64,000 bases of DNA from Stentor roeselii (Eukaryota > Ciliophora > Heterotrichea > Heterotrichida > Stentoridae). The stretch covers positions 153,913 through 217,912 of the forward strand of contig RSEH01000022.1 in assembly GCA_006503475.1 (NCBI GenBank). Direction: 5' to 3'. The stretch's first letter is position 1, and every line of letters begins with the position of its first letter. The notes beneath the pieces are model-generated. The model was not told where the DNA came from, did no database searches, and was given only the letters and a program-made list of their open reading frames with translations. Positions 19,308 to 59,326 of the stretch are shown here, piece by piece. Both the position numbers and the translations under genes were made by a program.

Positions 19308-20231
19308 TTAAGAATAGAAACATCTCTGGAGCCAATGCTTTGCTTCTTCTTCGTCGATGTATCCGCCGTATTCTTTCTTTCTTGAGTTCACATCGTAGAT
19401 TCGGACTGCCTGTCAAATACTAACTATTTTTCAACTACTTCTTCCTTTCTTTCAAATACTTGCTGCATATGCGATACCCACTGAATAAACCTAACAATCT
19501 TCATAAGTATCACAATCTTAATGCCAGATACAATCTACCTAAATCCAACAATCTGCATAATCCCTACAAACAACAACAAACTGTCTATCATTCGAAACCC
19601 TGACATCATAAGTATCAACCTGGACATCATGTATTCTAATTCCAACCCTATTCAAAAATTCTATCTTTTCCTTCAATTCTAAAGAAGAAAACATTCTCTG
19701 CACATCTGAATGACTGCCAAATTTCACTTTTTACTCAATACAAATTATCTCATCTTGAAAAGTCGCTTGTCGAAACCTTTGTTCTTCTCCCGGATCATTA
19801 GAAAAATGTTGATTTAGCAACTGGACTGTTAAATCTGCGAAGCCTTTCAGTTCTTTTCCTTTGAAGCTCGAGTATCTGAACTGCCCGAGGATTTCGTCTA
19901 CGTTTCCTGCTTGGCCTTTTGATATGAAACTTTTTAGAATTCTTTGTTTTGTCTTGATCAGGTCGAGGAATTGCTTCGCCATTCTGCTTAAGTCGTCTGT
20001 CATTTTGTTTACTATGAAGATTGCCTCGTTTTTTGCTTCTTGCAGTTGAGAATATGCCTGGTTCATAACAAATAAATGAAAAGAAACTTCATGAGTCTTC
20101 GAATTTCCATAGCATCCAGACATCTCTCCATGCATCCTAAAATGAAACTCGCAAAGCCTTAACTTCCGAGGACACGAACATTCATATTCAACCCATCGAG
20201 AGCAGTCAAGGCTTTGACAGCGAAGAGACAT
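19308..20231 (-). CDS. B-box-like zinc/coiled-coil protein with a tandem 15-nt intron array
   Basis: Exon 1 is 20231-19742. A 15-nt intron (19727-19741) removes a TAA. Exon 2 is 19726-19568, followed by the array at 19567-19406 and a last exon 19405-19308 ending RCFYS. If all nine units are spliced, the product is 257 residues and stays in frame. Residues 1-50 form a B-box-like zinc site (CQSLDC...YECSCP...LCEFHFRMHGE...THEV), followed by a helical coiled coil (residues 60-130). The tail (RIYDVNSRKKEYGGY, IDEEEAKHWLQ) looks like part of a folded domain. TRIM-like architecture without a visible RING. The start ATG lies 16 nt after the stop of the WD40 gene, so the two may share a transcript. 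Confidence 0.65.
19406..19567 (-). repeat. nine tandem 15-nt intron-like units with 3-nt spacers
   Basis: On the minus strand, nine 15-mers follow one another: 19553-19567, 19535-19549, 19517-19531, 19499-19513, 19481-19495, 19463-19477, 19445-19459, 19424-19438 and 19406-19420. Every one begins GT, ends AG and has A at position 10, exactly like the verified introns in this window. Spacers are att, att, att, att, tgg, caa, gaagaa and tta, so the period is 18 nt. Read through, the frame holds six stops, each inside a unit. The first four units share an AGATTGT junction, pointing to tandem duplication; otherwise the sequences have diverged. Confidence 0.7.
19727..19741 (-). other. 15-nt spliceosomal intron
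   Basis: gtattgagtaaaaag, A at position 10; removes an in-frame TAA of the B-box gene. Confidence 0.75.
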
Positions 20232-20247
20232 TTATAAAAACTTAACT

Positions 20248-21711
20248 TTAAACAATTAACTTAAAAACCTGGTATTTCAAATTAAGACTAGAAACAATCA
20301 AATATTTCAAAGACCTGCTCATACACAAAGTCCGGATAGCAGAAATTTTGGTATATGTTGAAAGGATTGAACTTTGCTCACCTTTTTCCCTGTTGTTAAT
20401 AAAAATCTTATTCAAATCAGCGAAAATCATCAACGAAGGGCTTGGACTTAAAATCCTGATTTTATTTTTAATCTCAAAAGAAATTTTGCGAGTTGAAAAA
20501 GTTTCCATATCAAGTTGAATCAAAGCCTTGTTAAAAACAATCAAAAATACACTTCTCCCGTCATTAGAAACTGAAAAATCATAAACTAATCTCTGATTAT
20601 CAATGAACTTTACTTCACTTTTTTCATTCCAGATATAAAAGTAAGACTTTTGAGTAAGTCCTGCAAGATTTCTGCCATTTCCAAACAAAGCGATTTTTTT
20701 CAGTTTTCCATTCAAAAATTCAAAAGATTTAATTGCAATTTCTTTTCGTAAGTCCCATAAAATGACTTGAAGGTTGATGTACCCAACAACAAGTCTCAAG
20801 TCATCCTGAGTGACACAAAGTGAAGTGACTTGAGCTGAAGTGTTTCCAAGTCTTTTTACTTCCTGGTCAACTTGCCATACACGAACATCGAATTCTCCAG
20901 TAAAAAAAAATTTCCCTTCATGATCTGAAACTAAAGACAATGTCGAAGTCCTGCCCAGAGATCTTTTCCAGATTTTTCTCTCATTTTTCAAGTCCCAAAG
21001 AGTCAAAGTCAGGTCTCTCGAAGAAAATACTAAAAAATCATCATTTGCTAGAATTAAAAGACGCTCAACTTCACTTTCCAATCCTTGAATTTCTTGAATG
21101 ATAAATTTTTGCTCTATTGACCATATCAACACTTTTTTTTCAAGAGCGATTGCAAGATTATTGCTGAAGTGAAAAGGACGAAAAGAGCTTATCCAAAGAT
21201 TTTCCCCGAAGTTGTATTTGAAGTTATCAAGATTTTTATCTTCTAAGGGGAACTGAAGGTCGAGAATCAAGAGTTCGTTTTCAGATGATTTTGTTATCAG
21301 CCACCTTGAATCGAATGAAATGGAAAAACTGGAAAAGGAGGTCCAGTCTTTTGAGATTTTTGTTAAAAGCTTCAGGGATCTTGTGATAAGGTCGAGGGTG
21401 AAGATTTGATGGTTTTTAAGAGAAATTATTATTGAAGTTGATGTGCTGTTCATATAGGATATTGGGAAATTGAATTTTAGAATTTCTAACATTTTTCCGG
21501 TGTTTGAGTCCCAGAGACATAACTTTTTACCGTCTGTTGCTGTTAAGATTGTTGAGTCTTTCTCGAGGATTTTTAGACAACCTGATTTGTTTTCTTTGAA
21601 AAAGTAAGACTTGGATTCTCGGCAAAGCTTTTTAAATCTTTTGAGTCTTTTTAAGGTGAAACTTTGGTTGATTACTGAAAATTCTTTTATTACCAGACCT
21701 TTGAAATCCAT
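20248..21711 (-). CDS. WD40-repeat beta-propeller protein
   Basis: 487 residues made largely of WD40-like blades: KLCLWDSNTGKML, LLILDLQFP, LTLWDLKNERKIW, DVRVWQVDQEV, LQVILWDLRKEIAIKSF and FYIWNEKSEV are spaced 40-60 residues apart. At least seven blades can be counted, so a single propeller plus a divergent N-terminal segment (about 50 basic residues) is likely. No other domain is visible, so the specific role is unknown; a protein scaffold is inferred. Its stop lies 16 nt before the B-box gene start, and its start is 186 nt from the end of the gene upstream. Confidence 0.78.
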   Translation of the reverse strand: MDFKGLVIKEFSVINQSFTLKRLKRFKKLCRESKSYFFKENKSGCLKILEKDSTILTATDGKKLCLWDSNTGKMLEILKFNFPISYMNSTSTSIIISLKNHQIFTLDLITRSLKLLTKISKDWTSFSSFSISFDSRWLITKSSENELLILDLQFPLEDKNLDNFKYNFGENLWISSFRPFHFSNNLAIALEKKVLIWSIEQKFIIQEIQGLESEVERLLILANDDFLVFSSRDLTLTLWDLKNERKIWKRSLGRTSTLSLVSDHEGKFFFTGEFDVRVWQVDQEVKRLGNTSAQVTSLCVTQDDLRLVVGYINLQVILWDLRKEIAIKSFEFLNGKLKKIALFGNGRNLAGLTQKSYFYIWNEKSEVKFIDNQRLVYDFSVSNDGRSVFLIVFNKALIQLDMETFSTRKISFEIKNKIRILSPSPSLMIFADLNKIFINNREKGEQSSILSTYTKISAIRTLCMSRSLKYLIVSSLNLKYQVFKLIV

Positions 21712-30907: not shown

Positions 30908-32553
30908 ATGTCGGCAGAAATTTTTGAGATGCTTCATTCATCTCTTCTGAATCTTGACGACAGAAGGTATATCTCGATTCTTTCAAATATTCCTTGCAAG
31001 GTCACGAGTCTTCTGACGAAGGAGGACAACAACAGTAGAAATATTTAGTTTTGCATGAATTGGCTTTGGACATTGGCAAAGAAGAACATCTTTTGACGTT
31101 TCTTGAGAAGATTGAAATGCATGTAAGGAAAAATCAGTTCTCGAATGAACCGGAGATTATGAAAATTTTGTCAAATCAGCAGAATAAGGATGGAAAAAGT
31201 CCACTTCATCAGGCAATTATGACTGGAAGGAAGGTAAAAAAGAATTAGAAACTTGTTAAGTGTTTTATTGACTTTGGAACTGACTTGAACCTTCTGGATT
31301 ATCAGGGACAAGGAGTGATTCATATGGCGACTATCGCTGAGCAGTTGTCTTTGCTTACACTTTTTCATAAGGTTTACCAACTGCCTATTAATTCTAAGGA
31401 TAAAAACGGGAGAACGCCTCTTCACATCGCAGCCTTTGAAGGCCACGAGCAGAGTTCAACCCTATTAATCGCTTGGAGTGAAGACATGAATGAATTAGAT
31501 AATGAAGGACTGACTCCTCTACATCTAGCCGTGGTCGCAAAATCCTATCGCATAATCCGACACCTACTAATGCGAGGTGCAAGAAGAAGCATAAAAAACA
31601 ATCAAGGTTCAACAGCTTTAGAAATCTCAGAACGAGTAGGAGTATCCGATCAAATAAAAGAATCACTTCAAGAGCCATTTTGCCTTTCAGGTCTAAATCC
31701 AATAAAATCACCATTACAGCCAGTGACAAACAGTTACTCTTCATTCGTGGTATACGTTGTCACCTTTTGTTTAAGATACATTCTTATCTTTCTCTACCTT
31801 TTCCCACAGCTCAATTTATTTTATGACATTTGTTTTATTTTTCTTTTTACCATCAATTTTGTGTTGTTTCAAATCGTGAGCAACGTCGACCCAGGCTACG
31901 CGAAGATCGACTTTTCAATGGGTTACCTTCAGTTATACGAGAAGTACAACGGGGACTTCGTTTGTGCCTATTGCCAGGTGAAGAGGCCGTATCATATAAA
32001 GCACTGTCAACATTGCAATCGTTGTGTTCGGAAGTTTGACCATCACTGTCCTTGGATCCATAATTGTGTAGGTGAAGGAAATCATCGAGTCTTTTTTTGG
32101 TTTCTTGTCTTGACGGAAACTGACTTCATGTTTAACCTCGTCATCGGGATTCTTCATTATCTCGGCATTATTGCTGGAGATAGTCCTTTTGAAGAACTTT
32201 CAAGGCATAGTCCTTATGTTGACTTGGAAATTTACTTTGCACTTGGAACTGCGATTTTTAGTGGGGTTGCTTTTTTGATTGTCTCACCCCTGCTTTATGT
32301 GCAACTTACTAATTTGATTCAGAAAACTACCACTAATGAAAGGTTCGCTTTTCAAAAGCATAAAGGGAAGAAAAAAGGGGATTTGGACTCGGATACTCGC
32401 AGCATGCTGCTCGTTGATGATGATGCGGAACCTCAGATGGTCAATGAACAGAATTCGGATTTGAGTGATAGTGAAATAAGTGTACAGGCTGTTCATAGGA
32501 GATGCTGCTTTAAAAGGTCGGCTAGGGTTAGTTGGGATAAGATACCGAACTGA
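30908..32553 (+). CDS. ankyrin-repeat DHHC protein S-palmitoyltransferase, 3 exons
   Basis: Exons 30908-31034, 31049-31233 and 31249-32553 give 538 residues, ending at TGA. The N-terminal half has about six ankyrin repeats (NNILHELALDIG, KSPLHQAIMTG, QGVIHMATIAEQ, RTPLHIAAFEG, LTPLHLAVVAK). Then come two membrane helices, a DPG motif (VDPGYAK) and the zinc-binding DHHC domain (CQHCNRCVRKFDHHCPWIHN) with catalytic Cys. Two more helices and a TTxE-like motif (KTTTNER) follow. This is the HIP14/ZDHHC17, Akr1 and plant TIP1 architecture: a Golgi or plasma-membrane enzyme that transfers palmitate to protein Cys. The tail is acidic, then Cys/Arg-rich. The first intron is only 14 nt. Confidence 0.93.
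31035..31048 (+). other. 14-nt intron
   Basis: gtagaaatatttag; A is sixth from the end, as in the 15-nt introns. The frames on either side differ by two, so 14 nt is required to join the first two ankyrin segments (NN/ILHELA). Confidence 0.65.
31234..31248 (+). other. 15-nt spliceosomal intron
   Basis: gtaaaaaagaattag, A at position 10; removes an in-frame TAG between ankyrin repeats. Confidence 0.88.
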
Positions 32554-32948
32554 AGATTATTTAATAAGTTGGATGGAAGAGATTTTGAATGGATTAATTT
32601 TTTTCGGAGTTTTGTTGATTTGATTGTTTTCTTCTTGAATAGATTAATTTTTTTCATTGTGTTCGTTAATCTTCTTGTTTTCTTCTTGAGTGGATTAATT
32701 TTTTTTATAGTTTTAGTTGATTTGATTGTTTTTCTTCTAAAATTGGCTAATTCTTATTGTTTCTATAGTTTCCGTTGATTTACTCAACTTGTTATTTGTC
32801 TTATCATTTAAGGACTTTATTTTTATGATTGAAGATTTTTGATTTTCAGGAAGAATACTCGTTGAAGAAGTGAAAAAGTATGTATTTTTATAGAGTTTAC
32901 TGTATTTTAAATTTAATTTCGCTAAAGACACATGTTTATTAAAGTAAA
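32554..32948. other. 395-bp gap between DHHC and SUB1-like genes
   Basis: Contains the T-rich tandem repeat at 32586-32742 in its left half. The rest is AT-rich with no supported gene. Confidence 0.5.
32586..32742 (+). repeat. three-copy T-rich tandem repeat after the DHHC gene
   Basis: Units begin ggattaattttttt at about 32591, agattaattttttt at 32641 and ggattaattttttt at 32692, so the period is 50-51 bp. Each contains tgttttcttctt-like cores. It lies 3' of the palmitoyltransferase stop and gives a spurious hydrophobic ORF. Confidence 0.7.
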
Positions 32949-39821: not shown

Positions 39822-41405
39822 ATGGGTTCAGCTTGTGTTTCCGAGAAAAAAAAAAGAGAACGTTTTGACCTCTTCGCCAAATTATTCGATTCATTCGATT
39901 TCCGTCTAAGTCCATCAGACGAGTTCACTTTCCTAATGAGAGCGAAAAGAGAACTAACAGGTGGCTACGGTCCCGACGAGTTCGTCCAAAAAATCTTCAA
40001 TGGTTATCGCCGGTTCATGATAGAGACCTGCATCAAAATTCACTTATTTAAAAACCGAGACCATTCAAAGCCAGTGATTGCAAAACTCACTCCTCCTCCT
40101 CTAGTTGACGAGATGTGGCAATTGGCGATTTTATATACAGAGAAGTACCGAGAGTTATGTCGTAGCATGATTGGAACTGTCATTCATCGAGAACCACAGC
40201 CGAGAATCGATGGGTTTAAATCTTTGTTCAAAGGAGTCTGGATTGACTATAGCCAAAATATGTGGGCTTGGGATAGAGAGTTCACTGTTTGGATTTTCAA
40301 TCGTGATGTTGTTAGAGTTGTCACTCAGGCTTATGAGGAGTTTATGAAATTATTGAAAAATGATAGAATACACTTTGAAACTGATCTAATGAGGTCTTAT
40401 TTAACGAAGATTAGGTCGTTTGTTGAAAGGGTTGGGAGTAATCAGGACTATCACCGTCCAGTGACTCAGATTCCGACTCATCATGAATATTACAACACTT
40501 CGAAGCAAGATAATGTGGATTTGATATACTCAAATATCAAATCTTCTCTTCCTCCAGAAATTCACAATCAATTATTTCAAAAGTACTGCACTTCGACTCT
40601 TACAGATCAATACATACATGAATACATCAGATTCATGGTCCTTATCTACTTCTCGAAATGCACCTTGACTCCTAGTGAAGAAGTCGACCAGGTTTGGCAT
40701 CTTCATCAGTCTTTTAGCTTATATTATGAAAAATTCTGCATTGCTATCTTTGGTAAGTTAATTATCCACACTCCAACTGCTGGAGGTAGTGCAGACGAGG
40801 TTAAATTTAAAGAGTGTTATTTGAAAACAATAGAGTTTTACAAGTTTATTTTCAAAGAGAGTCCTATGTATGGCATTTGGCCACCCGTTGAGATAAGATT
40901 CGACCCAAACTACTTCATCGGTTGTTGGGTAAGTCTAGCAAGGATTTTCCAGTCCTTAGTTCGCATAATCGAAATAAACAAGACAACCCGTCCTCAGGAT
41001 ATTTTCATAGACGTAATGACTTGTTACTACTCCTGGACCGGTAAAAATCTATTCAATAAGAGGATGTTCAAGATTAACATGAAAAAGACTGCAAAATATA
41101 GAAATGGTTATTCATCTGGAACTTATTGGGTGGCTGGAGGATGCGCACTCATTATTGGCACTGGATGTGCTGGAGGATGTGGAGGCGGATGCGGAAATTC
41201 TGGATGTGGAGGAGGAAGCGGATGTGGAGGAAGCGGATGTGGAGGAAGTGGATGTGGAGGAAGTGGATGTGGAGGAGGAGGAGGAGGAAGTGGATGTGGC
41301 GGAAGTGGATGTGGAGGAAGTGGATGTGGAGGAAGTGGATGTGGAGGCGGAGGATGTGGAGGTGGAGGTTGTGGCGGAGGCTGTGGAGGAGGGTGCGGAG
41401 GATAG
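39822..41405 (+). CDS. GRDP-like (DUF1399) protein with Gly/Cys tail, copy 1
   Basis: 527 residues. Two copies of a W-centred motif mark the DUF1399/glycine-rich-domain family: LVDEMWQLAILYTEKYRELC then GTVIHREP near residue 93, and EEVDQVWHLHQSFSLYYEKF then GKLIIHTP near residue 285. From about residue 446 the chain is nearly pure Gly, Cys and Ser (GCGGSGCGGS), encoded by a 15-bp microsatellite-like unit (ggatgtggaggaagt). Plant GRDPs act in development and stress; bacterial relatives carry similar Cys/Gly tails. The tail may form disulphide- or metal-linked aggregates. Two paralogues follow on the same strand. Confidence 0.78.
   Translation: MGSACVSEKKKRERFDLFAKLFDSFDFRLSPSDEFTFLMRAKRELTGGYGPDEFVQKIFNGYRRFMIETCIKIHLFKNRDHSKPVIAKLTPPPLVDEMWQLAILYTEKYRELCRSMIGTVIHREPQPRIDGFKSLFKGVWIDYSQNMWAWDREFTVWIFNRDVVRVVTQAYEEFMKLLKNDRIHFETDLMRSYLTKIRSFVERVGSNQDYHRPVTQIPTHHEYYNTSKQDNVDLIYSNIKSSLPPEIHNQLFQKYCTSTLTDQYIHEYIRFMVLIYFSKCTLTPSEEVDQVWHLHQSFSLYYEKFCIAIFGKLIIHTPTAGGSADEVKFKECYLKTIEFYKFIFKESPMYGIWPPVEIRFDPNYFIGCWVSLARIFQSLVRIIEINKTTRPQDIFIDVMTCYYSWTGKNLFNKRMFKINMKKTAKYRNGYSSGTYWVAGGCALIIGTGCAGGCGGGCGNSGCGGGSGCGGSGCGGSGCGGSGCGGGGGGSGCGGSGCGGSGCGGSGCGGGGCGGGGCGGGCGGGCGG
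41161..41403 (+). repeat. Gly/Cys codon microsatellite
   Basis: Imperfect 15-bp units (ggatgtggaggaagt) and shorter variants encode the tail of copy 1. Strongly purine-rich on the coding strand, unlike the rest of the gene. Confidence 0.8.
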
Positions 41406-44189
41406 AGTATAGATAGAGTAAATAATTTTAGATTTAAGTTATTTGGATTGGTTTTTAAGTCTTTTGTTTAGTTTATAAAGAGAGGAAGTATATGCTCATC
41501 TTTCGTGATTTGATATTGGGTTTATATGAGTTTTGGGTTTTTTTTTGGATAAGTTAGTGACAATTTTGGTATTGTACCAGAATTGATTGTTAAGAAAGAA
41601 AAAGCAGATTTTTAAGGATTAGTTTTGATTAAAGTTAAATTAAGAGTTTTACTCTTTCCAATAAATTACATAATCAATTCAAGATTTGCAAGTTAACATT
41701 TAAAATTGAATAATTTATTGTTTGATTGTTTATAGTATTATTAAAATAAAGTTAAAATAATATTATTTAACACATAAGAATTTTTGAATCACTCAGATTT
41801 GATGAGTATATGATAGGCCTAAGAAAATCATTTTTTGAAGCTATATTTATCACTTAAACCTTCCAAATCAACATTCAAACCATTTTTTTATCAAATAAAT
41901 AACTGGAAATATTTGAAAATATTTTTTTTTGGTAAAGGAGTAGATTGATTAATAAAAATAAATTGCTATTAGTTTGGAATACAATCAAGGATTGTTATAT
42001 TTTTTAGAATGAGATTAATTATCCTCTTTTATTGACCTAAACTCCCACCTTTCTGTTAAAAATTTTCAAATATAAAATGAAAATAAAGCATTCTACTAGA
42101 TATCTTCAATAAAATAAATCAAAAAAATTCGTTTTAAAAGGCTAATTTGATTTCCTATCTTTCATAATACCTTGGATTTAAAATTATGATTATTAATGCT
42201 GAAAAGTCATCAGATTAAATATTGACATATTAAGATTCATTCACTCATAAGTACAAAAAATTTTGAGGTATTTGCTTATACATGTCAGAAATCTACTTTT
42301 ACTGCCCATTCATAATTTCGATGAAGATTTTTATAGAAAATTAAGTGATGCCCAATTAAATATATAATTTTGGCTAGGCTATTTACAGTCTATTAATAAA
42401 CTCCGATTAGTATAAGCAATTAAATCTCAAACCTGCATATTCTTATTTAAAATGAAAAGCTAGATTATTTTACTATATCAATAGGAGTAAACTCAAATAT
42501 CACATTTTTATAGTTGATATGTATTCATTTCAATTCTTTGAGATAACTGAATATTCAGATAAATCAATAGATACTCCATTAAACCTTTTTTCAGTAAAGA
42601 TTTAGGAAAGATTTACTATAAAAAAACTATAAAAATCATTTATGGTTTAAGATTAAAGCAAGAATCTCTAATTAAATAAAAAAAAATACTCAACTATTAA
42701 GCTGAGTCATGAACTGATTCTTGAACACAACTTAGAGATGATTTTGATTCTATATACAATAAAGAAGAAGAGAAAAACCTAAAAGAGGTGTTATGAAAAA
42801 ATGTGCAATACTAAAGGTATCCAAAAGCATCTAAAAGTAATGTCAGAAGCAGTCAATCAATAGCAGAAGGTAATCATTAATATATACAGAAATTAATAGT
42901 TATATAAGATAAATTCAAATAAATCAAAGATTTATCATTCCAATCAAATATTAGATACGAATTAAATCTATCAATAATCTAGATTCAGATAAACTCAGCA
43001 ATGAAGAAAAAATTATAAACCAAGTTGATAATAATACATGACATCAGATAAACTTTAATGACAAAGAAAGCGACATACCACTCGCAAGAAGAAGTAGCTA
43101 TATATTTAAAACTCACAAATAATTTTTTCAAAATAAAAAGAATAAAAAACTAATTTTAAATAAAGGATTCAAACAATGCTTTGAGAACCATGCGGCCAGT
43201 AAGAGATTAAATTACCATCTGTAAGTAATCCTTTATTAATAATAAATTTTATACTAAAGTCAATTTCCAAATATTAAGAATGATAATATCAAGTATAAAT
43301 ATTCTCCAAACATTAAAAATAATACATTCAAGTAAATATTATCCAAACAATAATTATAGAATACTCACAAATTCTCTGAAGAATTAAGAGATATTTAAAA
43401 TAATCAAAATTTACCAAATAATACTCATAATAGCCAGGGAAATTCACGAAAAATAATCATAAAAAACATCCAAATTCTCAAATCTTAAAAATAATCATAG
43501 CCAGTATTCGAATCTCAATGAATTAAAATAATTATATAAAGCATCTAATTGATCAAATAATTATAACAAATATCCAAACCCCAAAATAATAATTATAAAG
43601 TCGAAGTAATACTCCAAATAATATTTGGAGTTCTCAAATTTTTACTTGAGTATCAGAAATAAATAAAAATTCAACGAAATATAAGAGCCTTAAAAGCTCG
43701 AACTATTTAAGTTACTTTAAAATTTAACTTTTATGATTAACCGTGAATGTTCAATATAAGATTTTCGCTATACTGGACATATTTTTTAAAATTTTATAAA
43801 TTTTATTTAATTTACAATTGAAATATTTAAGAGTTGAAAGCTCAGTATGCCCTTAAAATATTAAAATATATTATTTCAATGTTGTTAACTAAAAATTTTT
43901 CATATTTTGTGATTAAATTAATTCCATTTTTATCTATTAATATTTTCATTTCTTTTAATCATAAGTTTTTGGGGTAGAGAGCGTATCACCATGACCTTTA
44001 CTCATATTACAGCTAGAATAATAAATCATATCAATTTCTATAATCTTAAATCATATTTATGAATTTTTTAAAGCATAGATAAGTATACTTAATAAAAATT
44101 CCCAAAATAACAAACCGAATCAAAAAATTAAGATCTTCATTCTATTAAAATTCATTAAAAGTTTATTCATGAAAAATTCTAATCATAAA
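41406..44189. other. 2.8-kb AT-rich region between GRDP-like copies 1 and 2
   Basis: No ORF of substance. 43240-43630 has degenerate A-rich segments that reuse words like atccaaa and ataattata. A 21-bp hairpin is at 43611-43631. Nothing resembling a decayed GRDP-like copy was seen. Confidence 0.45.
43611..43631. repeat. 10-bp perfect inverted repeat
   Basis: Arms actccaaata and tatttggagt, separated by one base, in non-coding DNA. Role unknown. Confidence 0.7.
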
Positions 44190-45707
44190 ATGGGTACAGC
44201 AAGTGTTTCAGAAACTAAAATTGAAAAAAGTTCCGATATCTTCGAGAAAATATTCGATTCTTTCGATTTCCGTCTGAGTCCATCAGATGAGTTCACCTTT
44301 CTAATGAGAGCGAAAAGAGAACTAACAGGGGGCTTTGGTTCTGATGAGTTCATCCGAAAAATCTTCAAGGGTTATAAACAGTTCATGATAGAGACCTGCG
44401 ACAAGATTCACTTAGTTAGAAACCGAGACCATTCAACGCCAATTATCGCAAAACTCACCCCTCCTCCGCTTGTCGACGAAATGTGGCAACTAGCGATTTT
44501 ATATACCGAGAAGTACCGAGAGTTGTGTCACAACATGATTGGAACAGTTATTCATCGAGAACCACATCTAAAAATCGATGAGTTTAAATCTTTGTTCAAA
44601 GGAGTCTGGGCTAACTATGAGAAAAAGATATGGGCTTTGGATCGAGATAATACTGTCTGGATTTTCAATCGCGATATTGTTAGAATTGTGACCCAGGCTT
44701 ATGATTACTTGATGACCTTAGTGATTAATGATAAAATTTACTTGCATGAAAACCAACTTTCAGCTTTTATATATTATATGAAATCGGATAATGAAACTGG
44801 TGTCACTTATAAAGACATGACCAGTGAAGAGTCGCAAATTCCAACGCATCATGAATACTTCAACTCTTCAATTCAAGACTCTGTAAATTCAGTATACTCA
44901 AAGATCAGTTCTCATCTTCCGACAAACTTGGCAATCCTTTTATCTCAAAAGTACTGTACTTCAACTTTGACAGAACAATACATAAGTGAATATACCAAAT
45001 TCATGGTTTTACTTTACTTTTCCAAATACTCCTTAACTCCAAGTGAAGAAGTCGATCAAGTTTGGCATCTTCATCAGTCTTTAAGCCTTCAATATGAAAA
45101 ATTCTGTAATTTTATCTTTGGAAGATTAATTATTCACACTCCTACAGCTGGAGGAAGTAAAGAAGATCTAAAATTCAAAGAGTTTTATGTACAAACAATT
45201 GAATTTTATAAATTTATATTCAAAGTAAACCCTTCTAGGGGCTTTTGGCCACCAGTGGATGTAAGATTTGACCCAAACTATTTCATCGGAAGTTGGGTAA
45301 GCCTTCTAAGAATTTTTTTTTCAATTGTTCTTATCATTCAAACAAACAAGAAAAACCGTCCAAAAAATCTTTTCATTGATGTAATGAATTGTTACTATTC
45401 ATGGACTGGTAAAAATATATTTAATAAGAAATTTTTGATCATTAATATGAAACGACCCGCAAAGTACAGAAAAGTAGAGGAAACTAAGTTTGTAGGAAGA
45501 GGTGGAGGTGGAGGAGGAGGAGGAGGAGGAGGAGGAGGAGGTGAAGGTGGATGTGGAGGTGGAGGCGGATGTGGAGGAGGAGGTGGATGTGGAGGAGGAG
45601 GATGTGGAGGAGGAGGAGGAGGAGGTGGATGTGGAGGAGGAGGAGGTGGATGTGGAGGAGGAGGAGGTGGATGTGGAGGAGGAGGAGGTGGATGTGGAGG
45701 AGCTTAG
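44190..45707 (+). CDS. GRDP-like (DUF1399) protein with Gly/Cys tail, copy 2
   Basis: Start set at ATG 44190 (MGTASVSETK), matching the starts of the other copies; an in-frame ATG lies seven codons upstream. 505 residues. The two W motifs (VDEMWQLAILYTEKYRELCH and VDQVWHLHQSLSLQYEKFCN) and the IHTPTAGGS segment are kept. The tail is longer in pure Gly (runs of Gly, then CGGGGG units) and has lost most Ser, so it diverged by slippage from copies 1 and 3. All copies start M-G, and Ser/Thr at positions 3-7 makes N-myristoylation conceivable but not a good match. Confidence 0.78.
   Translation: MGTASVSETKIEKSSDIFEKIFDSFDFRLSPSDEFTFLMRAKRELTGGFGSDEFIRKIFKGYKQFMIETCDKIHLVRNRDHSTPIIAKLTPPPLVDEMWQLAILYTEKYRELCHNMIGTVIHREPHLKIDEFKSLFKGVWANYEKKIWALDRDNTVWIFNRDIVRIVTQAYDYLMTLVINDKIYLHENQLSAFIYYMKSDNETGVTYKDMTSEESQIPTHHEYFNSSIQDSVNSVYSKISSHLPTNLAILLSQKYCTSTLTEQYISEYTKFMVLLYFSKYSLTPSEEVDQVWHLHQSLSLQYEKFCNFIFGRLIIHTPTAGGSKEDLKFKEFYVQTIEFYKFIFKVNPSRGFWPPVDVRFDPNYFIGSWVSLLRIFFSIVLIIQTNKKNRPKNLFIDVMNCYYSWTGKNIFNKKFLIINMKRPAKYRKVEETKFVGRGGGGGGGGGGGGGGEGGCGGGGGCGGGGGCGGGGCGGGGGGGGCGGGGGGCGGGGGGCGGGGGGCGGA
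45502..45704 (+). repeat. Gly/Cys codon microsatellite
   Basis: gga/ggt/tgt repeats with unit lengths of 15-24 bp (ggatgtggaggaggaggt) encoding the tail of copy 2. Confidence 0.8.
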
Positions 45708-47369: not shown

Positions 47370-48896
47370 ATGGGTACAGCAAGTGTTTCCGAGAAGAAAA
47401 AACGAGAAAGTTTCCAACACTTCTCAAAGCTTTTCGATTCCTTCGATTTCCGTCTGAGTCCATCAGACGAGTTCACTTTCCAAATGAGAGCTAAAAGAGA
47501 ACTAACAGGAAACTTCGGTCCAGACGAGTTTATCCAAAAAGTCTTCAGTGGTTATCGACGTTTCATGATAGAGACCTGCGTCAATATTCACTTCCTTAAA
47601 AACCGAGACCATTCAAGGTCAGTGATTGCAAAACTGACCCCTCCTCCCCTTGTAGACGAAATGTGGCAACTGGCGATTTTATATACAGAGAAGTACCGAG
47701 AGTTATGTCGCAGCATGATTGGAACCGTCATTCATCGAGAGCCTCAGACGAGAATCAATGGATTTAAATCTTTGTTTAAAGGAGTCTGGATTGACTACAA
47801 TGAGAAGATGTGGACATTGGATCGAGATTACACTGTCTGGATTTTCAATCGCGATATTGCTAGAATTGTGAATCAAGCTTATGATAAATTGATGAGATCT
47901 GTGACGAATGATAGAATTCACTTGATTGCTAGTCAAGTTCCGACTTATTTAAATTATATGAAGTCGGATAATGAAAATGGTGTCGCTTCTAGAGATATGG
48001 GGAGAACTGAGACAGAGATACCGACGGAACATGAATATTTTAACTCTTGTAAGAAAGAGTCTGTTAAATCAATATTTTCTAAGATCAAGTCTTATCTTCC
48101 GAGAAATTTGTTAAACCTCTTGTCTCAAAAGTACTGCACTTCAAATCTTACAGAGCATTACATCAGTGAATATATTAAATTCATGGTTCTTGTATACTTC
48201 TCTAAATCCACATTGACTCCTAGTGAAGAAGTTGATCAAGTCTGGCATCTTCATCAGTCTTTAAGCTTGCAATATGAAAACTTCTGTAATGCTGTTTTTG
48301 GGAAGTTGATTATTCATACTCCAACTGCTGGAGGCAGGACAGATGAGGTTAGATTCAAAGAGTTTTATGTAAAAACAATAGAGTTTTATAAGTTTATATT
48401 CAAAAAAAGCCCTCCTAGAGGTCTTTGGCCACCTGTAGAGGTAAGATTCGACCCCAGCTACTTCATCGGAACTTGGATAAGTCTCGTGAGAATCTTCCAG
48501 TCAATCGTTCGTATCATTGAAATAAACAAGTTAAATCGTCCACCGAATCTTGTCAATGATGTAATGAATTGTTACTATGCCTGGACTGGAAAAAATCTTT
48601 TTAATAAGAAGATGTTCAAGATCAATATGAAAAGAACCCCAAAGTATAGAATTGGATATTCAGATGGAACTTATTGGGTAGAAGGAGGATGTGCACTGCT
48701 TATTGGAAATGGAGAATCGGGAGAATGTGGAGGAGGGTGCGGAAATAGTGGATGTGGAGGCGATTGTGGATGCGGGGGAAGTGGTTGTGGGGGAAGCGGA
48801 TGCGGTGGAAGCGGAAGTGGATGCGGAGGAAGTGGATGCGGAGGAAGTGGATGCGGGGGAGGCGGCTGCGGGGGAGGAGGATGTGGAGGAGATTAG
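47370..48896 (+). CDS. GRDP-like (DUF1399) protein with Gly/Cys tail, copy 3
   Basis: 508 residues, start MGTASVSEKKKRESF. Domain layout as in copies 1 and 2: W motif 1 near residue 93 (VDEMWQLAIL), W motif 2 near residue 285 (VDQVWHLHQS), and GGS/GCGG tail from about residue 450. Closest to copy 1 in the N-terminal region and tail (both have Ser-containing CGGSG units preceded by a GGCALLIG or GGCALIIG segment). The hydrophobic GGCALLIGN step before the tail might insert in a membrane or act as a spacer. Function unknown; the tandem family suggests dosage or variant production. Confidence 0.78.
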   Translation: MGTASVSEKKKRESFQHFSKLFDSFDFRLSPSDEFTFQMRAKRELTGNFGPDEFIQKVFSGYRRFMIETCVNIHFLKNRDHSRSVIAKLTPPPLVDEMWQLAILYTEKYRELCRSMIGTVIHREPQTRINGFKSLFKGVWIDYNEKMWTLDRDYTVWIFNRDIARIVNQAYDKLMRSVTNDRIHLIASQVPTYLNYMKSDNENGVASRDMGRTETEIPTEHEYFNSCKKESVKSIFSKIKSYLPRNLLNLLSQKYCTSNLTEHYISEYIKFMVLVYFSKSTLTPSEEVDQVWHLHQSLSLQYENFCNAVFGKLIIHTPTAGGRTDEVRFKEFYVKTIEFYKFIFKKSPPRGLWPPVEVRFDPSYFIGTWISLVRIFQSIVRIIEINKLNRPPNLVNDVMNCYYAWTGKNLFNKKMFKINMKRTPKYRIGYSDGTYWVEGGCALLIGNGESGECGGGCGNSGCGGDCGCGGSGCGGSGCGGSGSGCGGSGCGGSGCGGGGCGGGGCGGD

Positions 48897-49873: not shown

Positions 49874-51002
49874 TATTATCAATTACAACATCTCTCGAAG
49901 TCAACTGAATTTGCGCCTTAACCAACTCAGCAAATTCTTCCTTGACACTAACCTCATCCACCCTTCTCAAAAAATTCGTACAAAGCAAATCTCCAGCAGA
50001 GGCTCTTCTTGCAGGATCATTCTGCAAACAAAGCCTAACAAACTCTTGAAAATCTTGAGAAAAATTCTCAGGAATGCGAGGTTCAGGTCCTTTATTGATT
50101 TTCGCAGCAAGTTCCACAAAATTCTTACAATTCGAATAAGGAGTCACAGCAGAGATGACTTCAAAACAAATAATTCCAAGTGACCAAATATCACAAGAAC
50201 ATTTGTACTTTCGACCATTAATAATTTCTGGAGAGTTCCACAAAGGTGACCCTGCAACTGTTTCTCTTTCATCTTTTTCTCGACATAATTGCGCGGAAAG
50301 TCCAAAATCGCCGATTTTTACATCTCCTTGAAAGTTGACGTAAATGTTTTCAGCTTTTAGGTCTCGATGAATGACGAACAAACTATGAATGAATTGAATT
50401 CCTTTTACTATTTGAAGGATTATGTAAGCCATAATAGTCTCATTGTCGCGTTGCCAATTTTGGAGAAATTGAAGTAAAGTCATGTCCATGTATTCTTGAA
50501 GTAAGGAATGCATGTTGTTGAAAAAGTATAAAGCATAACAACTTACTATGTTTGGGTTTTGGTTAATCACTGACTTGCTAAATTCTTCATAAACGACTGT
50601 TTTATTTAACTTGACTTTTATTTCTTTTAATGCGAAAATCTTTTTTTCTTCATTTTCTACTTGAAAAACGTTTGAAGTCGACCCTTCGCCCAGTTTCTTT
50701 AATTTTGTGAAAACGCTTAAAGGGTTGGATTTTATTGGCTCGATACTTGTGTTGAGGAAGTCTTGGTGCTATTTGAAAAGTACTTGTTTTAAAGTGGGAA
50801 TGTTCATGCCGAAGTACTTTGGGTAGTTTATTGTTTCAGGATTTAATTGAATGTAACAATTGTTGCAATGGCCTTTGATGGAAATACCTGAATCGAGAGA
50901 AGCCATGAAACAAGCTCCACAAAATTTTTTTTGGCAGTTAAGGCATTTTCGTTTCCTTCTGAAGACTCCGGTTATATCTTTTGAGCAGTTTCCGCATGAC
51001 AT
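49866..51002 (-). CDS. FYVE-type zinc finger fused to STE-like protein kinase, 2 exons
   Basis: Exon 1 is 51002-50784 and exon 2 is 50768-49866, with a 15-nt intron (50769-50783); 373 residues. Residues 1-50 have eight Cys in FYVE spacing (CGNC...RKRKCLNCQKKFCGAC...GHCNNC). The basic RRKRKC stands where R-HHC-R binds PI3P. From about residue 90 a kinase domain follows: LGEGSTSNVFQVE glycine loop, FALKEIKVKL, HRDLKAENIYV, IGDFGLSAQL, GSPLWNSPEI. It is STE20/NEK-like. The finger probably brings the kinase to PI3P-rich endosomes. The ATG is chosen at 51002 after tataaat; the upstream frame is open but overlaps the previous gene. Confidence 0.85.
50769..50783 (-). other. 15-nt spliceosomal intron
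   Basis: gtacttttcaaatag, A at position 10; removes an in-frame TAG between finger and kinase. Confidence 0.85.
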
Positions 51003-55288: not shown

Positions 55289-56413
55289 ATGGAATTCGAC
55301 CCAAACGAAGCCATAGTGATCGACATAGGATCTCACACAATGCGTGCAGGTGTCTCAGGTAACGACTACCCAAAAATGATAGAAGAAACCGTTGTAGGTC
55401 GTCCTCAAATCGCAGGAACCGTAACAATGGACCAAAAAGACCTGTACATCGGGCGGGACGCGATAGAAAAGCGTGACATTCTGAGTCTTTCTCATCCTGT
55501 CAAGCATTCAACAGTGCAGAACTGGGACGAAGTCGACAAAATCTTCCAACACATCTTTTTTAATCAACTTGCCGCTGATCTTACATTAAGCCGGGTGATG
55601 CTGATGGAACCGCCACTTAATAAAAGAGGAATTCGGGAAAAAACAACGGAAATCATGTTTGAAACCTTTTCAACTGCAGGATTTTATTTGGCGAATTCAA
55701 GTGTTATGAGTCTTTTCGCTACAGGAAGAACAACTGGCATTGTCATTGAAAGTGGATTGAATGAAACTTCTATTGTTCCTATTTATGAAGGATATGCTTT
55801 ACCACAGGCAACTCTTAAACTTCCGATTGGTGGTGAAGAAGTTACGAACTTTTTGATTGTTAACTTGAGAAAAGGAGGGTTGGACCTTCCGAGTAGTAAA
55901 GAATTTGAGATTGCTCAAGATATTAAAGAAAAGTATTGTTATCTGTCAACCGACTACCAACAAGAGTTAAACATGGTGGGAACCAACCCAAGCATTTCAA
56001 AAGAATGCGAATTACCCGACGGTAACAAAATAATCCTAGCCGGTGAAAGATTCAAATCGCCAGAGATTCTTTTCCAGCCTCTTCTAGTGGGTGTAGACCA
56101 AGCAGGTATCCACGAGCTTGCTTACAACGCAGCCGTGAAATGTGACCAAGACATCCGAAAGCAACTTTTCGGCAACATAATCTTAAGTGGAGGAAACACG
56201 ATATTCCCAAAAATCAAGTTAAAACTATCAAGAGACATAAAATCCTTAGCTCCAAGCAACATCGACATCAACGTAAAAGCGCCTCCAGAGCGAAAACACA
56301 TGGCATGGATCGGAGGAGCAATTTTAAGTTCATTATCAGGGTTCAAGATGTGGATTTCTCGAAGTGAATACGACGACTACGGTCCTGCAGTAGTTCATCG
56401 AAAGTGTTTTTAA
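55289..56413 (+). CDS. divergent actin-like protein
   Basis: 374 residues, the length of actin. ATP-site segments are recognisable: IVIDIGSHTMRAGVSGNDYP (phosphate loop 1; actin has GSG), GIVIESGLNETSIVPIYEGY (phosphate loop 2; Asp replaced by Glu), ILSGGNTIFP, and the C-terminal HRKCF shared with actin. The hydrophobic plug region and the NWDEVDKIFQHIF segment fit actin/ARP1. The altered GSH and ESG residues suggest changed ATP handling. It could be a ciliate-specific actin or ARP. It precedes the channel-phosphodiesterase gene by just 9 nt on the same strand. Confidence 0.85.
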   Translation: MEFDPNEAIVIDIGSHTMRAGVSGNDYPKMIEETVVGRPQIAGTVTMDQKDLYIGRDAIEKRDILSLSHPVKHSTVQNWDEVDKIFQHIFFNQLAADLTLSRVMLMEPPLNKRGIREKTTEIMFETFSTAGFYLANSSVMSLFATGRTTGIVIESGLNETSIVPIYEGYALPQATLKLPIGGEEVTNFLIVNLRKGGLDLPSSKEFEIAQDIKEKYCYLSTDYQQELNMVGTNPSISKECELPDGNKIILAGERFKSPEILFQPLLVGVDQAGIHELAYNAAVKCDQDIRKQLFGNIILSGGNTIFPKIKLKLSRDIKSLAPSNIDINVKAPPERKHMAWIGGAILSSLSGFKMWISRSEYDDYGPAVVHRKCF

Positions 56414-56422
56414 TAGTTATTA

Positions 56423-59326
56423 ATGTGGCTTCATATCTTTAGTGTCAACACAGGAGCTGTCAGGACTCCTGACTTGAAGAATCACATGATTCAAAACAAC
56501 GATTTCTTGAAACTTGCCTTTGATGATGTTTACCTTCCGAAGCACCAGAGAATTCGCTTTCCTTTGAGACTTTTGAGGTTTTTGATTTCTGTTCCGCTTA
56601 TGATGATGATGGCAGTGTCGGTGTTGAATCAACGATACGGGTACCAGCCGAAGAATTACTGTCTTTATCGCAATGAATGCATTTCTAATTGTGAAGAACT
56701 TCATTATATGGACCAGACTTGCAAGCCTTATGCCGGCAAGATCAAGTATAATGGAAATACTTATGATGAACTTTATGAGTTCAAGTATGTCAATGATGAT
56801 GACTTCACTACTTGTCGGGATTATGTCGATGATAATGAAAACTACCCCTGGACTGAAGATCATGACAGACAATGGAAGGTCCATGCATGTTTTTTGAAGT
56901 ACAGAGAAAATAACTCCAATGATGATAACTTCGAACCTGACAACAGAGAAATTTATCAGAATTTGACTGGAACGAATATAAATGACTTACTTTGTGTTGA
57001 CCCTGGAGAAACTTGTGAAGTTCCAAAATGGACTGATGAAGACTGCTCTTCAGGTACTTGTATCAGCTTTGCAGTAATCTTCGCTGCGATTTTCATTGCA
57101 AATTTAGGTCAGTATGTATTTGAAGTCTCTTGGCTTTACACTTCAAATATCAACTTCAAACCGACTGACCTTGATTTGAAAGTGAACCCGAATAGAGCTG
57201 AAAATAATTTGAATAGTGATGAAGAACCTTCTTGTGAAAAAATCATGAAAAGGTGCTTAGGGGAGTTAACTGTTGCTGGAGCGTTTCTTGTGGCTATTTT
57301 GTGTTTAATTGCGAGTTTGATTGGAGTTCATTCTTTTGGAAGGCCGAAGACTGTTTGGACTGAGTGGATTATTGCGCTGGTTTTGGATCAGGTTAAGTCT
57401 TTGATTGTTCATCCCGCTATTTGGTGGACTGTTAGTTGTCGATGTGGGACTATACCTGGAACTTTTGCGGAGTGGAAAGATGAAACTGTCATGCCTGGCG
57501 TCAACGACCAGAGCATGATGACTGAAATCCGAGGTTACTTCGCTCAAGTTCTCGAAGGTAAGTACTTCGCCTACGGTCTGATCGGTCTGGTAATTTTTTA
57601 CGCTTTTTTCGTACTTCTAAGTCTCAGCATCGACGAGTACATCAACTCCTACCAAGTAGCTGTTGACATTTTCTACTACATCGACTTATCCCTTCTAGTA
57701 GTCTTCGTGACAGAAATCATTTTAAAGTTCATCGCCTGGGGCTTCACCTACATCTTCGAGCCTTGGAACACGGTCGACGCAGTGATAGTCCTAGTCTCTT
57801 TCAGCTTCAGCGTAAATCACAACCAAGTCAAAGGAATCGCGATTTTAAGACTACTGCGACTAGTCAGGGTGTTAATCATAATGCGTCGAGTAAGTGAAAG
57901 CAAGAAAAAGCTTTTAATGCTAAAAACCCAAAATCAAAGCGTAAGTTCAAATGTGACTCGTGTTCTTGACCTACTTGAAGAAATCTCAAAGGAAAAGACC
58001 TTGACAAGGGAAAATAAAACTGACCTCTCTTGGATCATGGGGCAAATACAAAGTCGCAAACTTTACACGAAGTCGACTTCTGAAGATGATGGAGTCTTAC
58101 TCTCTGATTACGACCGTGCATGGAAGGCACTAGTCAAAATGGACTATGAAGACTTTTCAGAATTCTCTGGACTCATCGAACATAAGGTCGGAGGTGATAA
58201 AGTCTTGAAAAGGGCAAGACAAAGCTCTATTGAAATGAAGATGTTTAATGCAAGTCATCATGTTGAAAGAGTTGATCAGATTTTTCTTACTCCTTCTTTA
58301 GATCAAACTGCTTTGGAAAGGCAGAAACTTGATGAAATTTATAAAACTTTAGAAAAAGTTGATGAGTGGAGCTGGGATGTTAATAAATTTGCACAGGCTG
58401 CTGAAGGGTGGTCTTTTCCTATTCTTTGTTTGAGGCTGTTTTTGAAGTATGATATTTATAAACAGTATGAAGATCAGCTCAATTTGGATAAATGGCTGAA
58501 TTATTTAAGCGGACTTTATCAGGGGTACTTGTTTAAGAATAAATATCATAATGAGTATCATATTTTAGATACTGTTCAAGCTACTCATTATTTTTATAAA
58601 ACTGCTGGATTGGAAATGAATTTGTCGGAACTTGAGAAAATGGTTGGAATTATTGCGGCTTTTATACATGACTATGAACACCCAGGCCTGACCAACCAAT
58701 TCCTAATCCGAACAAAGCATCCAAAAGCAATCCGTTACTCAGACCTATCCCCTCTCGAAAACCACCACGTTGCAAGTGCCTTTAAACTAATGGAAGGAGA
58801 AGGTGATCGAGACTTCCTCGACTTTTTAGACGACAAAAGACTTCGACTAGTAAGAAAGATGTTGATTTACATGGTGACTCGAACAGACATGTGTTACCAT
58901 TTCGACCTTCTAAGCAGTATTCAAGGAAAGATATACGCTGAGAACTTTCCAGGAGAAGCAAATTTAGAAGACAACTTGATGATAATGACTTTTACTCTTC
59001 ATTGCGCAGATTTAAGCAAACCAGCGCGAAATTGGATCTCATATCGAACTTGGATCGACAACATGATGGAAGAGTTCACTTCTCAAGGAGCAATGGAAAA
59101 AGACCTGAACATTCCTATCAGTTCCTTCATGGACGAGGAGAATACTAATAAAGAAAGGGTCCAACTGGCTTATATTGACTTCGTAGTAAGAGACAGTATC
59201 GACATACTTAATATTTTAAGTCCTGTTACTCTTAGCAATACGATTCAAAAGGACTTAGGCGAGAATCTTAATTTGAACAGAAAAGCACTTCAGAAGAAAA
59301 TCGAAGGAGAAGTTAACTTTAGCTAA
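56423..59326 (+). CDS. voltage-sensor domain fused to cyclic-nucleotide phosphodiesterase
   Basis: 967 residues. One helix near 53-70, then a Cys-rich outside loop (80-210), further helices near 212-232, 284-302 and 314-336, then an ion-channel-like S1-S4 set at about 381-488. S4 carries spaced Arg (ILRLLRLVRVLIIMRRV). No pore helix or S5-S6 follows. Instead residues 640-965 form a class I PDE catalytic domain with HNEYH (709-713), HDYEH (749-753), ENHH, HCADLSKPARNW (860-871) and the purine-binding Gln in VQLAYIDFVV. It should hydrolyse cAMP or cGMP at a ciliary or cell membrane, perhaps set by membrane voltage. Two domains known separately; fusion function is inferred. Confidence 0.88.
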   Translation: MWLHIFSVNTGAVRTPDLKNHMIQNNDFLKLAFDDVYLPKHQRIRFPLRLLRFLISVPLMMMMAVSVLNQRYGYQPKNYCLYRNECISNCEELHYMDQTCKPYAGKIKYNGNTYDELYEFKYVNDDDFTTCRDYVDDNENYPWTEDHDRQWKVHACFLKYRENNSNDDNFEPDNREIYQNLTGTNINDLLCVDPGETCEVPKWTDEDCSSGTCISFAVIFAAIFIANLGQYVFEVSWLYTSNINFKPTDLDLKVNPNRAENNLNSDEEPSCEKIMKRCLGELTVAGAFLVAILCLIASLIGVHSFGRPKTVWTEWIIALVLDQVKSLIVHPAIWWTVSCRCGTIPGTFAEWKDETVMPGVNDQSMMTEIRGYFAQVLEGKYFAYGLIGLVIFYAFFVLLSLSIDEYINSYQVAVDIFYYIDLSLLVVFVTEIILKFIAWGFTYIFEPWNTVDAVIVLVSFSFSVNHNQVKGIAILRLLRLVRVLIIMRRVSESKKKLLMLKTQNQSVSSNVTRVLDLLEEISKEKTLTRENKTDLSWIMGQIQSRKLYTKSTSEDDGVLLSDYDRAWKALVKMDYEDFSEFSGLIEHKVGGDKVLKRARQSSIEMKMFNASHHVERVDQIFLTPSLDQTALERQKLDEIYKTLEKVDEWSWDVNKFAQAAEGWSFPILCLRLFLKYDIYKQYEDQLNLDKWLNYLSGLYQGYLFKNKYHNEYHILDTVQATHYFYKTAGLEMNLSELEKMVGIIAAFIHDYEHPGLTNQFLIRTKHPKAIRYSDLSPLENHHVASAFKLMEGEGDRDFLDFLDDKRLRLVRKMLIYMVTRTDMCYHFDLLSSIQGKIYAENFPGEANLEDNLMIMTFTLHCADLSKPARNWISYRTWIDNMMEEFTSQGAMEKDLNIPISSFMDEENTNKERVQLAYIDFVVRDSIDILNILSPVTLSNTIQKDLGENLNLNRKALQKKIEGEVNFS

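Follow-up and report, generated by a model that had tools for sequence, protein, structure and literature searches.

In this study, a window of 64,000 nucleotides of the Stentor roeselii genome (the whole stretch of DNA that was analysed, from contig RSEH01000022.1) was investigated, and we observed that nine 15-mers of the form GT-N7-A-N3-AG, with every one of these signals present in nine out of nine, fill positions 19567 to 19406 of the minus strand. Judged from the sequence, they are probably nine spliceosomal introns of 15 nt that are removed singly, leaving seven exons of 3 nt and one exon of 6 nt. The array is a real feature of a very improbable kind, and it carries strong signs of selection for splicing. 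An earlier note on this DNA had described nine consecutive 15-nt units separated by 3 nt, in one case by 6, and all were found at exactly the positions it gave. The first bases of the units on the minus strand are 19567, 19549, 19531, 19513, 19495, 19477, 19459, 19438 and 19420, and the spacers read in order ATT, ATT, ATT, ATT, TGG, CAA, GAAGAA and TTA, so that their lengths (3, 3, 3, 3, 3, 3, 6 and 3 nt) are all multiples of three. The array was not reported by Tandem Repeats Finder. The features of the locus, with the basis of each in brackets, are as follows.

19742-20231, minus strand: exon 1 of the host gene, ATG at 20231 (open frame and coding score)
19727-19741, minus strand: single intron GTATTGAGTAAAAAG, A at position 10, phase 1, with in-frame stop (gene finder)
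19568-19726, minus strand: exon 2 of the host gene (coding score)
19553-19567, minus strand: unit 1 GTAGGGATTATGCAG, without in-frame stop (motif and frame reading)
19550-19552, minus strand: spacer ATT, putative single-codon exon (sequence)
19535-19549, minus strand: unit 2 GTTGGATTTAGGTAG, in-frame TAG (motif and frame reading)
19532-19534, minus strand: spacer ATT (sequence)
19517-19531, minus strand: unit 3 GTATCTGGCATTAAG, in-frame TAA (motif and frame reading)
19514-19516, minus strand: spacer ATT (sequence)
19499-19513, minus strand: unit 4 GTGATACTTATGAAG, without in-frame stop (motif and frame reading)
19496-19498, minus strand: spacer ATT (sequence)
19481-19495, minus strand: unit 5 GTTAGGTTTATTCAG, in-frame TAG (motif and frame reading)
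19478-19480, minus strand: spacer TGG (sequence)
19463-19477, minus strand: unit 6 GTATCGCATATGCAG, without in-frame stop (motif and frame reading)
19460-19462, minus strand: spacer CAA (sequence)
19445-19459, minus strand: unit 7 GTATTTGAAAGAAAG, in-frame TGA (motif and frame reading)
19439-19444, minus strand: spacer GAAGAA, putative two-codon exon (sequence)
19424-19438, minus strand: unit 8 GTAGTTGAAAAATAG, in-frame TGA (motif and frame reading)
19421-19423, minus strand: spacer TTA (sequence)
19406-19420, minus strand: unit 9 GTATTTGACAGGCAG, in-frame TGA (motif and frame reading)
19308-19405, minus strand: last exon of the host gene RIYDVNSRKKEYGGYIDEEEAKHWLQRCFYS, TAA at 19310-19308 (coding score)

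With reference to the reading frame, coding potential was scored with a codon model trained on 13,325 codons from 37 non-overlapping ORFs, the stops of which comprise 19 TAA, 13 TAG and 5 TGA; since all three are used, the standard code is indicated. Exon 1 scored +21.8 in frame and -22.8 and -6.8 out of frame, exon 2 scored +7.26 (156 nt scored) as against -7.9 and -17.0, and the last exon scored +7.98 (87 nt scored) as against -1.6 and -1.9. The score of exon 2 was reached by 22 of 4036 overlapping intergenic windows of equal length and that of the last exon by 6 of 4480 overlapping intergenic windows; of 679 coding windows, 10.3% attain the value of the last exon. The array itself scored -15.4 when read through, with six stops counted at -3 each; the other two forward frames gave -0.4 (two stops) and -17.5 (five stops), and the reverse frames -8.5, -18.7 and -0.8, with 1, 6 and 1 stops, respectively. 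As previously claimed, all six read-through stops lie within units, one each in units 2, 3, 5, 7, 8 and 9. Removal of the array joins exon 2 and the last exon in one frame, and the splicing of all nine units, which had been said to keep the frame, yields VVVYYYYLARRIIRIYDV and indeed leaves it open to the TAA at 19310-19308. Among the nine units and an overlapping 16-nt pair, only 8 of the 640 compatible choices of removal give open frames. In each of these eight, units 2, 3, 5, 7, 8 and 9 are removed, and the variation is confined to units 1, 4 and 6.

The host gene (20231 to 19311 examined) contains 18 candidate GT...AG pairs with a length of 15 or 16 nt, 11 of them in the array. Beyond the nine units, the array has only a 16-nt pair at 19435, with an A at the branch place, and a 15-nt pair at 19424 without it, which makes the parse nearly unique. 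The pair starting at 19435 overlaps unit 8, and its use would break the frame. A tenth match to the motif, GTGAACTCAAGAAAG (19391-19377, minus strand), lies in the last exon and was excluded from the array, being in phase 0 and free of stops. It stands in the coding-like stretch RIYDVNSRKKEY, and approximately one chance match is expected per gene of such length (119 per 128 kb); it is probably coding sequence and possibly an optional intron. Directly upstream on the same strand, a WD40 propeller gene occupies 20248-21711 (minus strand), 16 nt before the host ATG.

The units conform to the intron rule of the organism, which we derived from introns placed elsewhere by a gene finder that allowed GT...AG introns of 15 or 16 nt and left position 10 unconstrained. 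Six introns were placed at a penalty of -7 and eight at -6 and -5. All eight single introns, including the one at 19741 in the host gene, have a length of 15 nt, an A at position 10 and a GTA start, so that the A10 rule which the earlier note had recognized among independently placed 15-nt introns holds in eight out of eight without being required. Every one of the eight contains an in-frame stop, and their detection partly depends on such stops. Lowering the penalty to -4.5 added a 16-nt candidate, GTACGAATTTTTTGAG at 49981 (minus strand), which lacks an A at the usual branch place. The intron at 19741 was placed at penalties of -6 to -3, though not at -7, where the host gene ends earlier, at the stop within that intron. 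At penalties of -6, -5, -4 and -3 the gene finder ends the host gene at the unit 2 stop (19539); it declines the array because nine separate penalties outweigh an exon of 31 codons.

These observations are consistent with the published descriptions, as far as the available excerpts of them extend. For Stentor coeruleus, 8806 introns with an AU content of 75.63% are recorded. Their length is 15 nt in 8173 cases and 16 nt in 633, and 8005 have their branch A at position 10 (PMC9505925). Approximately 95% of heterotrich introns are of 15 bp and the remainder of 16 (PMC11441545), and Blepharisma likewise has introns of 15 and 16 bp, together with UGA read as tryptophan (PMC9942806), a code that does not fit our window, where TGA appears as a stop. 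The length, the GT-AG ends and the branch A at position 10 of heterotrich 15-nt introns are common to all nine array units. Intron-bearing genes of Stentor are described in the excerpted text as mostly having one or a few introns, and its authors were unsure whether, in genes with more than eight, every intron is functional and spliced (PMC9505925). The array, on the contrary, holds nine introns, if such they are, only 3 or 6 nt apart and less AT-rich than usual: A or T occupies 57 of the 90 free positions of the units versus 65 of the 80 in the single introns (Fisher p 0.011). An A at position 3 is found in six of the nine units and in all eight single introns (p 0.21). The lower AT content and the missing A3 suggest that some of the units may splice poorly.

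Chance was assessed with chains of motif matches, a chain being a series of consecutive units with spacers of 0, 3, 6 or 9 nt. When 150 sequences of 128 kb were generated by a first-order Markov model, the longest chain was 1 (102 cases) or 2 (48 cases), and in 200 shuffled windows, in which codons were permuted within the 37 ORFs and the remaining bases locally, it was again 1 (106) or 2 (94), as compared with the nine observed. Chance origin of the array was rejected, as no chain exceeded two in these 350 controls. Isolated matches, on the other hand, are about as frequent as expected (128 observed on both strands; the mean over 20 simulated sequences was 119). Arithmetic extrapolation from the 119 matches per simulated 128 kb, which is not itself a simulation, puts the chance of a nine-unit chain at about 1e-18; the figure of about 1 in 20,000 that had been offered for nine A's at position 10 was thus too mild.

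The divergence of the units was also analysed. All nine units agree in each of the five signal columns, so that none of the 45 signal positions is altered, whereas the ten free columns show a mean pairwise identity of 0.314 versus 0.277 (sd 0.022) with letters shuffled, a value reached in 116 of 2000 shuffles and in 162 of 2000 when letters were permuted inside units. The three bases following each unit have an identity of 0.27, counting only the first half of the GAAGAA spacer and, for unit 9, the triplet that follows it. No indels were seen, each unit having 15 nt despite near-saturated substitution. In a star-shaped simulation of descent, columns identical in all nine copies occurred at a rate of 0.0005 at a mean identity of 0.301 and 0.007 at 0.39, two identities that bracket the observed 0.314. 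Five invariant columns standing exactly at the places of the intron rule are therefore improbable by descent, and this points to selection on the splice signals. A scan of the window for periods of 9 to 60 found 1485 start sites with at least five invariant columns over seven rows, of which 87 have an identity below 0.40 in the remaining columns. These 87 sites form four clusters, namely the nine-unit array and three in Gly/Cys-rich coding repeats starting at 41284 and at 48725-48787.

In most eukaryotes the inclusion of a 3-nt exon is hard, as a donor can also pair with later acceptors. We put forward, tentatively and as something quite possible, that a length-gated spliceosome (15-16 nt) pairs the sites of the array purely by distance, so that exons can shrink to a single codon, the introns having multiplied head to tail with hardly any consequence for the protein while selection keeps their signals, since most units leave a stop if they fail. 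Such a spliceosome would admit no introns but those of 15 or 16 nt whose branch A lies six bases before the end, and each donor would pair only with an acceptor 15 or 16 nt downstream, so that length bars the skipping of tiny exons and a one-codon exon becomes cheap. All nine introns would be of phase 1 and lie inside one protein gene (20231-19308, minus strand). Neighbours standing 3 nt apart cannot hold spliceosomes simultaneously, so removal would have to be stepwise, probably in the order of transcription, each step extending the upstream exon by one codon; in that order every donor would face a long upstream exon. The predicted product is a protein of 257 residues with YYYYLARRII between VVV and RIYDV. 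Retention of any of units 2, 3, 5, 7, 8 and 9 would leave a stop and end translation early, and retention of unit 1, 4 or 6 would insert five residues, giving up to eight protein forms. SR proteins, Slu7 and Prp18 are recorded as not found in the Stentor inventory, according to the excerpted part of PMC9505925, and we infer that their absence fits recognition by intron length and not by exons.

The 15-nt intron run proposed in the earlier note is thus supported at the level of sequence by the invariant signals on a near-saturated background, the rule of the organism, the coding flanks in one frame and the stops that only splicing would remove, and units 1, 4 and 6 need not be removed for the frame to stay open. 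It could accordingly be argued that only units 2, 3, 5, 7, 8 and 9 are introns, with units 1, 4 and 6 usually retained as coding sequence or optional. The latter three are free of stops, can be kept or removed freely among the eight open products, and read CRDYAD, CDTYED and GIAYAA as coding sequence; moreover, if unit 1 is kept and the whole sequence between donor 2 and acceptor 9 is taken out, the resulting join gives a gap-free alignment with WD40 repeats of WDR61 at an E of 0.87. This match is, however, non-significant and its join falls outside the 15-16 nt rule, and GT, A10 and AG are as strict in units 1, 4 and 6 as elsewhere, on the same diverged background, so we consider the six-intron alternative unlikely. 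Rather unlikely, too, is that the gene is decaying or truncated and now ends in unit 2, the array being a remnant of introns whose signals were once under selection and the rest being untranslated or untranscribed. The termination of the gene model at the unit 2 stop, the short protein without a Pfam match above cut-off, and the units being less AT-rich than usual are what such decay would lead one to expect. Yet the last exon is still coding-like in the right frame, at a score that so few intergenic windows reach (6 of 4480), and decay would hit signal and free positions alike, whereas all the signals are intact and the rest is near saturation.

A single intron of 162 nt, which would use donor 1 and acceptor 9 and make relics or decoys of all signals between them, had been entertained as an option in the earlier note. 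It does keep the frame, with the product VVVFRIYDV, but annotated Stentor introns are only of 15 or 16 nt (PMC9505925) and those of heterotrichs of 15 or 16 bp (PMC11441545), as stated in the excerpts, and it would leave unexplained why the donors and acceptors inside it, eight of each, and the branch A's are invariant, which makes it very unlikely. The six-codon period, with units 1 and 4 reading CRDYAD and CDTYED, might also bring to mind a coding repeat whose stop codons are reassigned or passed by programmed read-through; this is highly improbable and already close to refuted, as TAA, TAG and TGA all appear as stops in the training ORFs, the read-through coding score is -15.4 and the product finds no match in Pfam. 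Just as improbable is some other periodic DNA or RNA element, for instance an array of protein-binding sites, sharing GT, A and AG by coincidence. It draws on the fact that splicing of the units is so far deduced from base order, but the invariant columns match exactly the intron rule of the organism and the array lies in frame between coding exons.

Regarding the origin of the nine proposed introns, the array probably grew by the duplication of 18-nt blocks, each consisting of an intron and a codon, and each such step would keep the frame and add one codon to the product. Such block duplication is suggested by the spacer ATT, which occurs four times, and by the similarity among units 7 to 9: units 7 and 8, and likewise 7 and 9, share 7 of 10 free positions, and units 7, 8 and 9 share 5 to 7 of 10 with one another. 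Common descent of all nine units is hardly visible (0.314 versus 0.277) and shows only in these subgroups and spacers; for the nine units taken together, tandem duplication, as suggested in the earlier note, is plausible but weakly supported. Alternatively, the introns may have been made out of a coding repeat of 18 nt, which would agree with the units being poorer in AT and with unit 1 being free of stops; this origin, together with the WD40 alignment of the join that keeps unit 1, is to be taken as a lead only. A duplicated segment containing AGGT has been described as creating new intron ends (PMC4974935); that case, in the excerpt, made one intron, whereas repeated duplication of an intron plus a codon is proposed here.

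Comparatively, several known systems share one trait or another with the array, as far as they are described in the abstracts and excerpts available. In the MEG genes of Schistosoma mansoni, 10-20 short exons of 6-81 bp (3-81 in the abstract), in most cases of 15, are found; their lengths are mainly divisible by three, and the introns range from 100 to nearly 5000 bp (PMC10526429). The serial tiny exons in multiples of three resemble the array spacers, if these are exons; the differences are that MEG introns of 0.1-5 kb stand against introns of 15 nt, the long introns being absent from the array, and that MEG exons of mostly 15 bp stand against eight exons of 3 or 6 nt. Single exons of extreme shortness have been reported, such as the 1-nt exon in Arabidopsis APC11 (PMC4674806), the 1-nt exon in Fusarium CYP621A and the 3-nt exon in Drosophila homothorax, each of these being one tiny exon of at most one codon whereas the array has a run. 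The snoRNA host gene SNHG14 has many serial introns (29 and 48), as in the array, but its introns carry snoRNAs in a non-coding host, and the excerpt mentions neither minimal introns nor one-codon exons. Stwintrons likewise involve several splicing reactions at one place; they are nested, according to the excerpt, whereas the array units are adjacent and show no internal interruption. The joined array spacers hold no new GT. In the open-licence literature, no serial introns with single-codon exons were found by title or start of abstract among the matches listed. We regard the array as a variant form of known spliceosomal introns, in a kind of run not previously described in the literature examined at that depth.

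If the array is spliced as proposed, the lower limit of exon size would extend from single curiosities to a series of eight, and the pairing of splice sites could be set by intron length alone. With nine donors and nine acceptors in 162 nt it offers a test of partner choice, and it bears on the removal order of adjacent introns and on a simple route to intron multiplication in a gene. It also serves as a warning that gene finders charging per intron may truncate such genes.

Searches with the host protein were also conducted. Four versions of the host product, including the read-through, gave no match above the curated cut-offs of Pfam. Against PDB sequences, three join versions, one of them the VVVFRIYDV product of the 162-nt intron, gave best E values of 0.87, 0.53 and 0.36, none significant; the first belongs to the unit-1-kept join already mentioned, whose six listed matches comprise three WDR61/Ski8 chains and three of an unrelated protein (E 1.2-1.3), and the WD40 match was absent for the other two joins. 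Among viral contigs the exon 1 protein found 5 pattern-matching stretches, and among bacterial and archaeal genomes a 223-residue query found 22, with none confirmed in either collection, neither of which is meant for ciliates. No paralogue of the host protein was found within the window (next best E 2.3), and Rfam matches and tRNAs numbered 0 each. Exon 1 folded alone gave a mean pLDDT of 57.9, with a long helix at 46-104 and shorter ones, which is too weak for a fold search.

Other features were also noticed in the window. Three paralogous genes on the plus strand (39822-41405, 44169-45707 and 47370-48896) are 64-72% identical and have very Gly/Cys-rich C-terminal tails of tandem repeats. 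A 51-nt repeat in three copies (32585-32738) lies immediately behind a gene (31117-32553) for a protein that resembles, by eye, ankyrin repeats and a DHHC-type domain. An actin-family protein is encoded at 55289-56413 on the plus strand (Pfam Actin, 5.1e-105), where the gene finder placed no intron, and a large protein at 56423-59326 on the same strand resembles, again by eye, a membrane channel with a cyclic-nucleotide phosphodiesterase domain.
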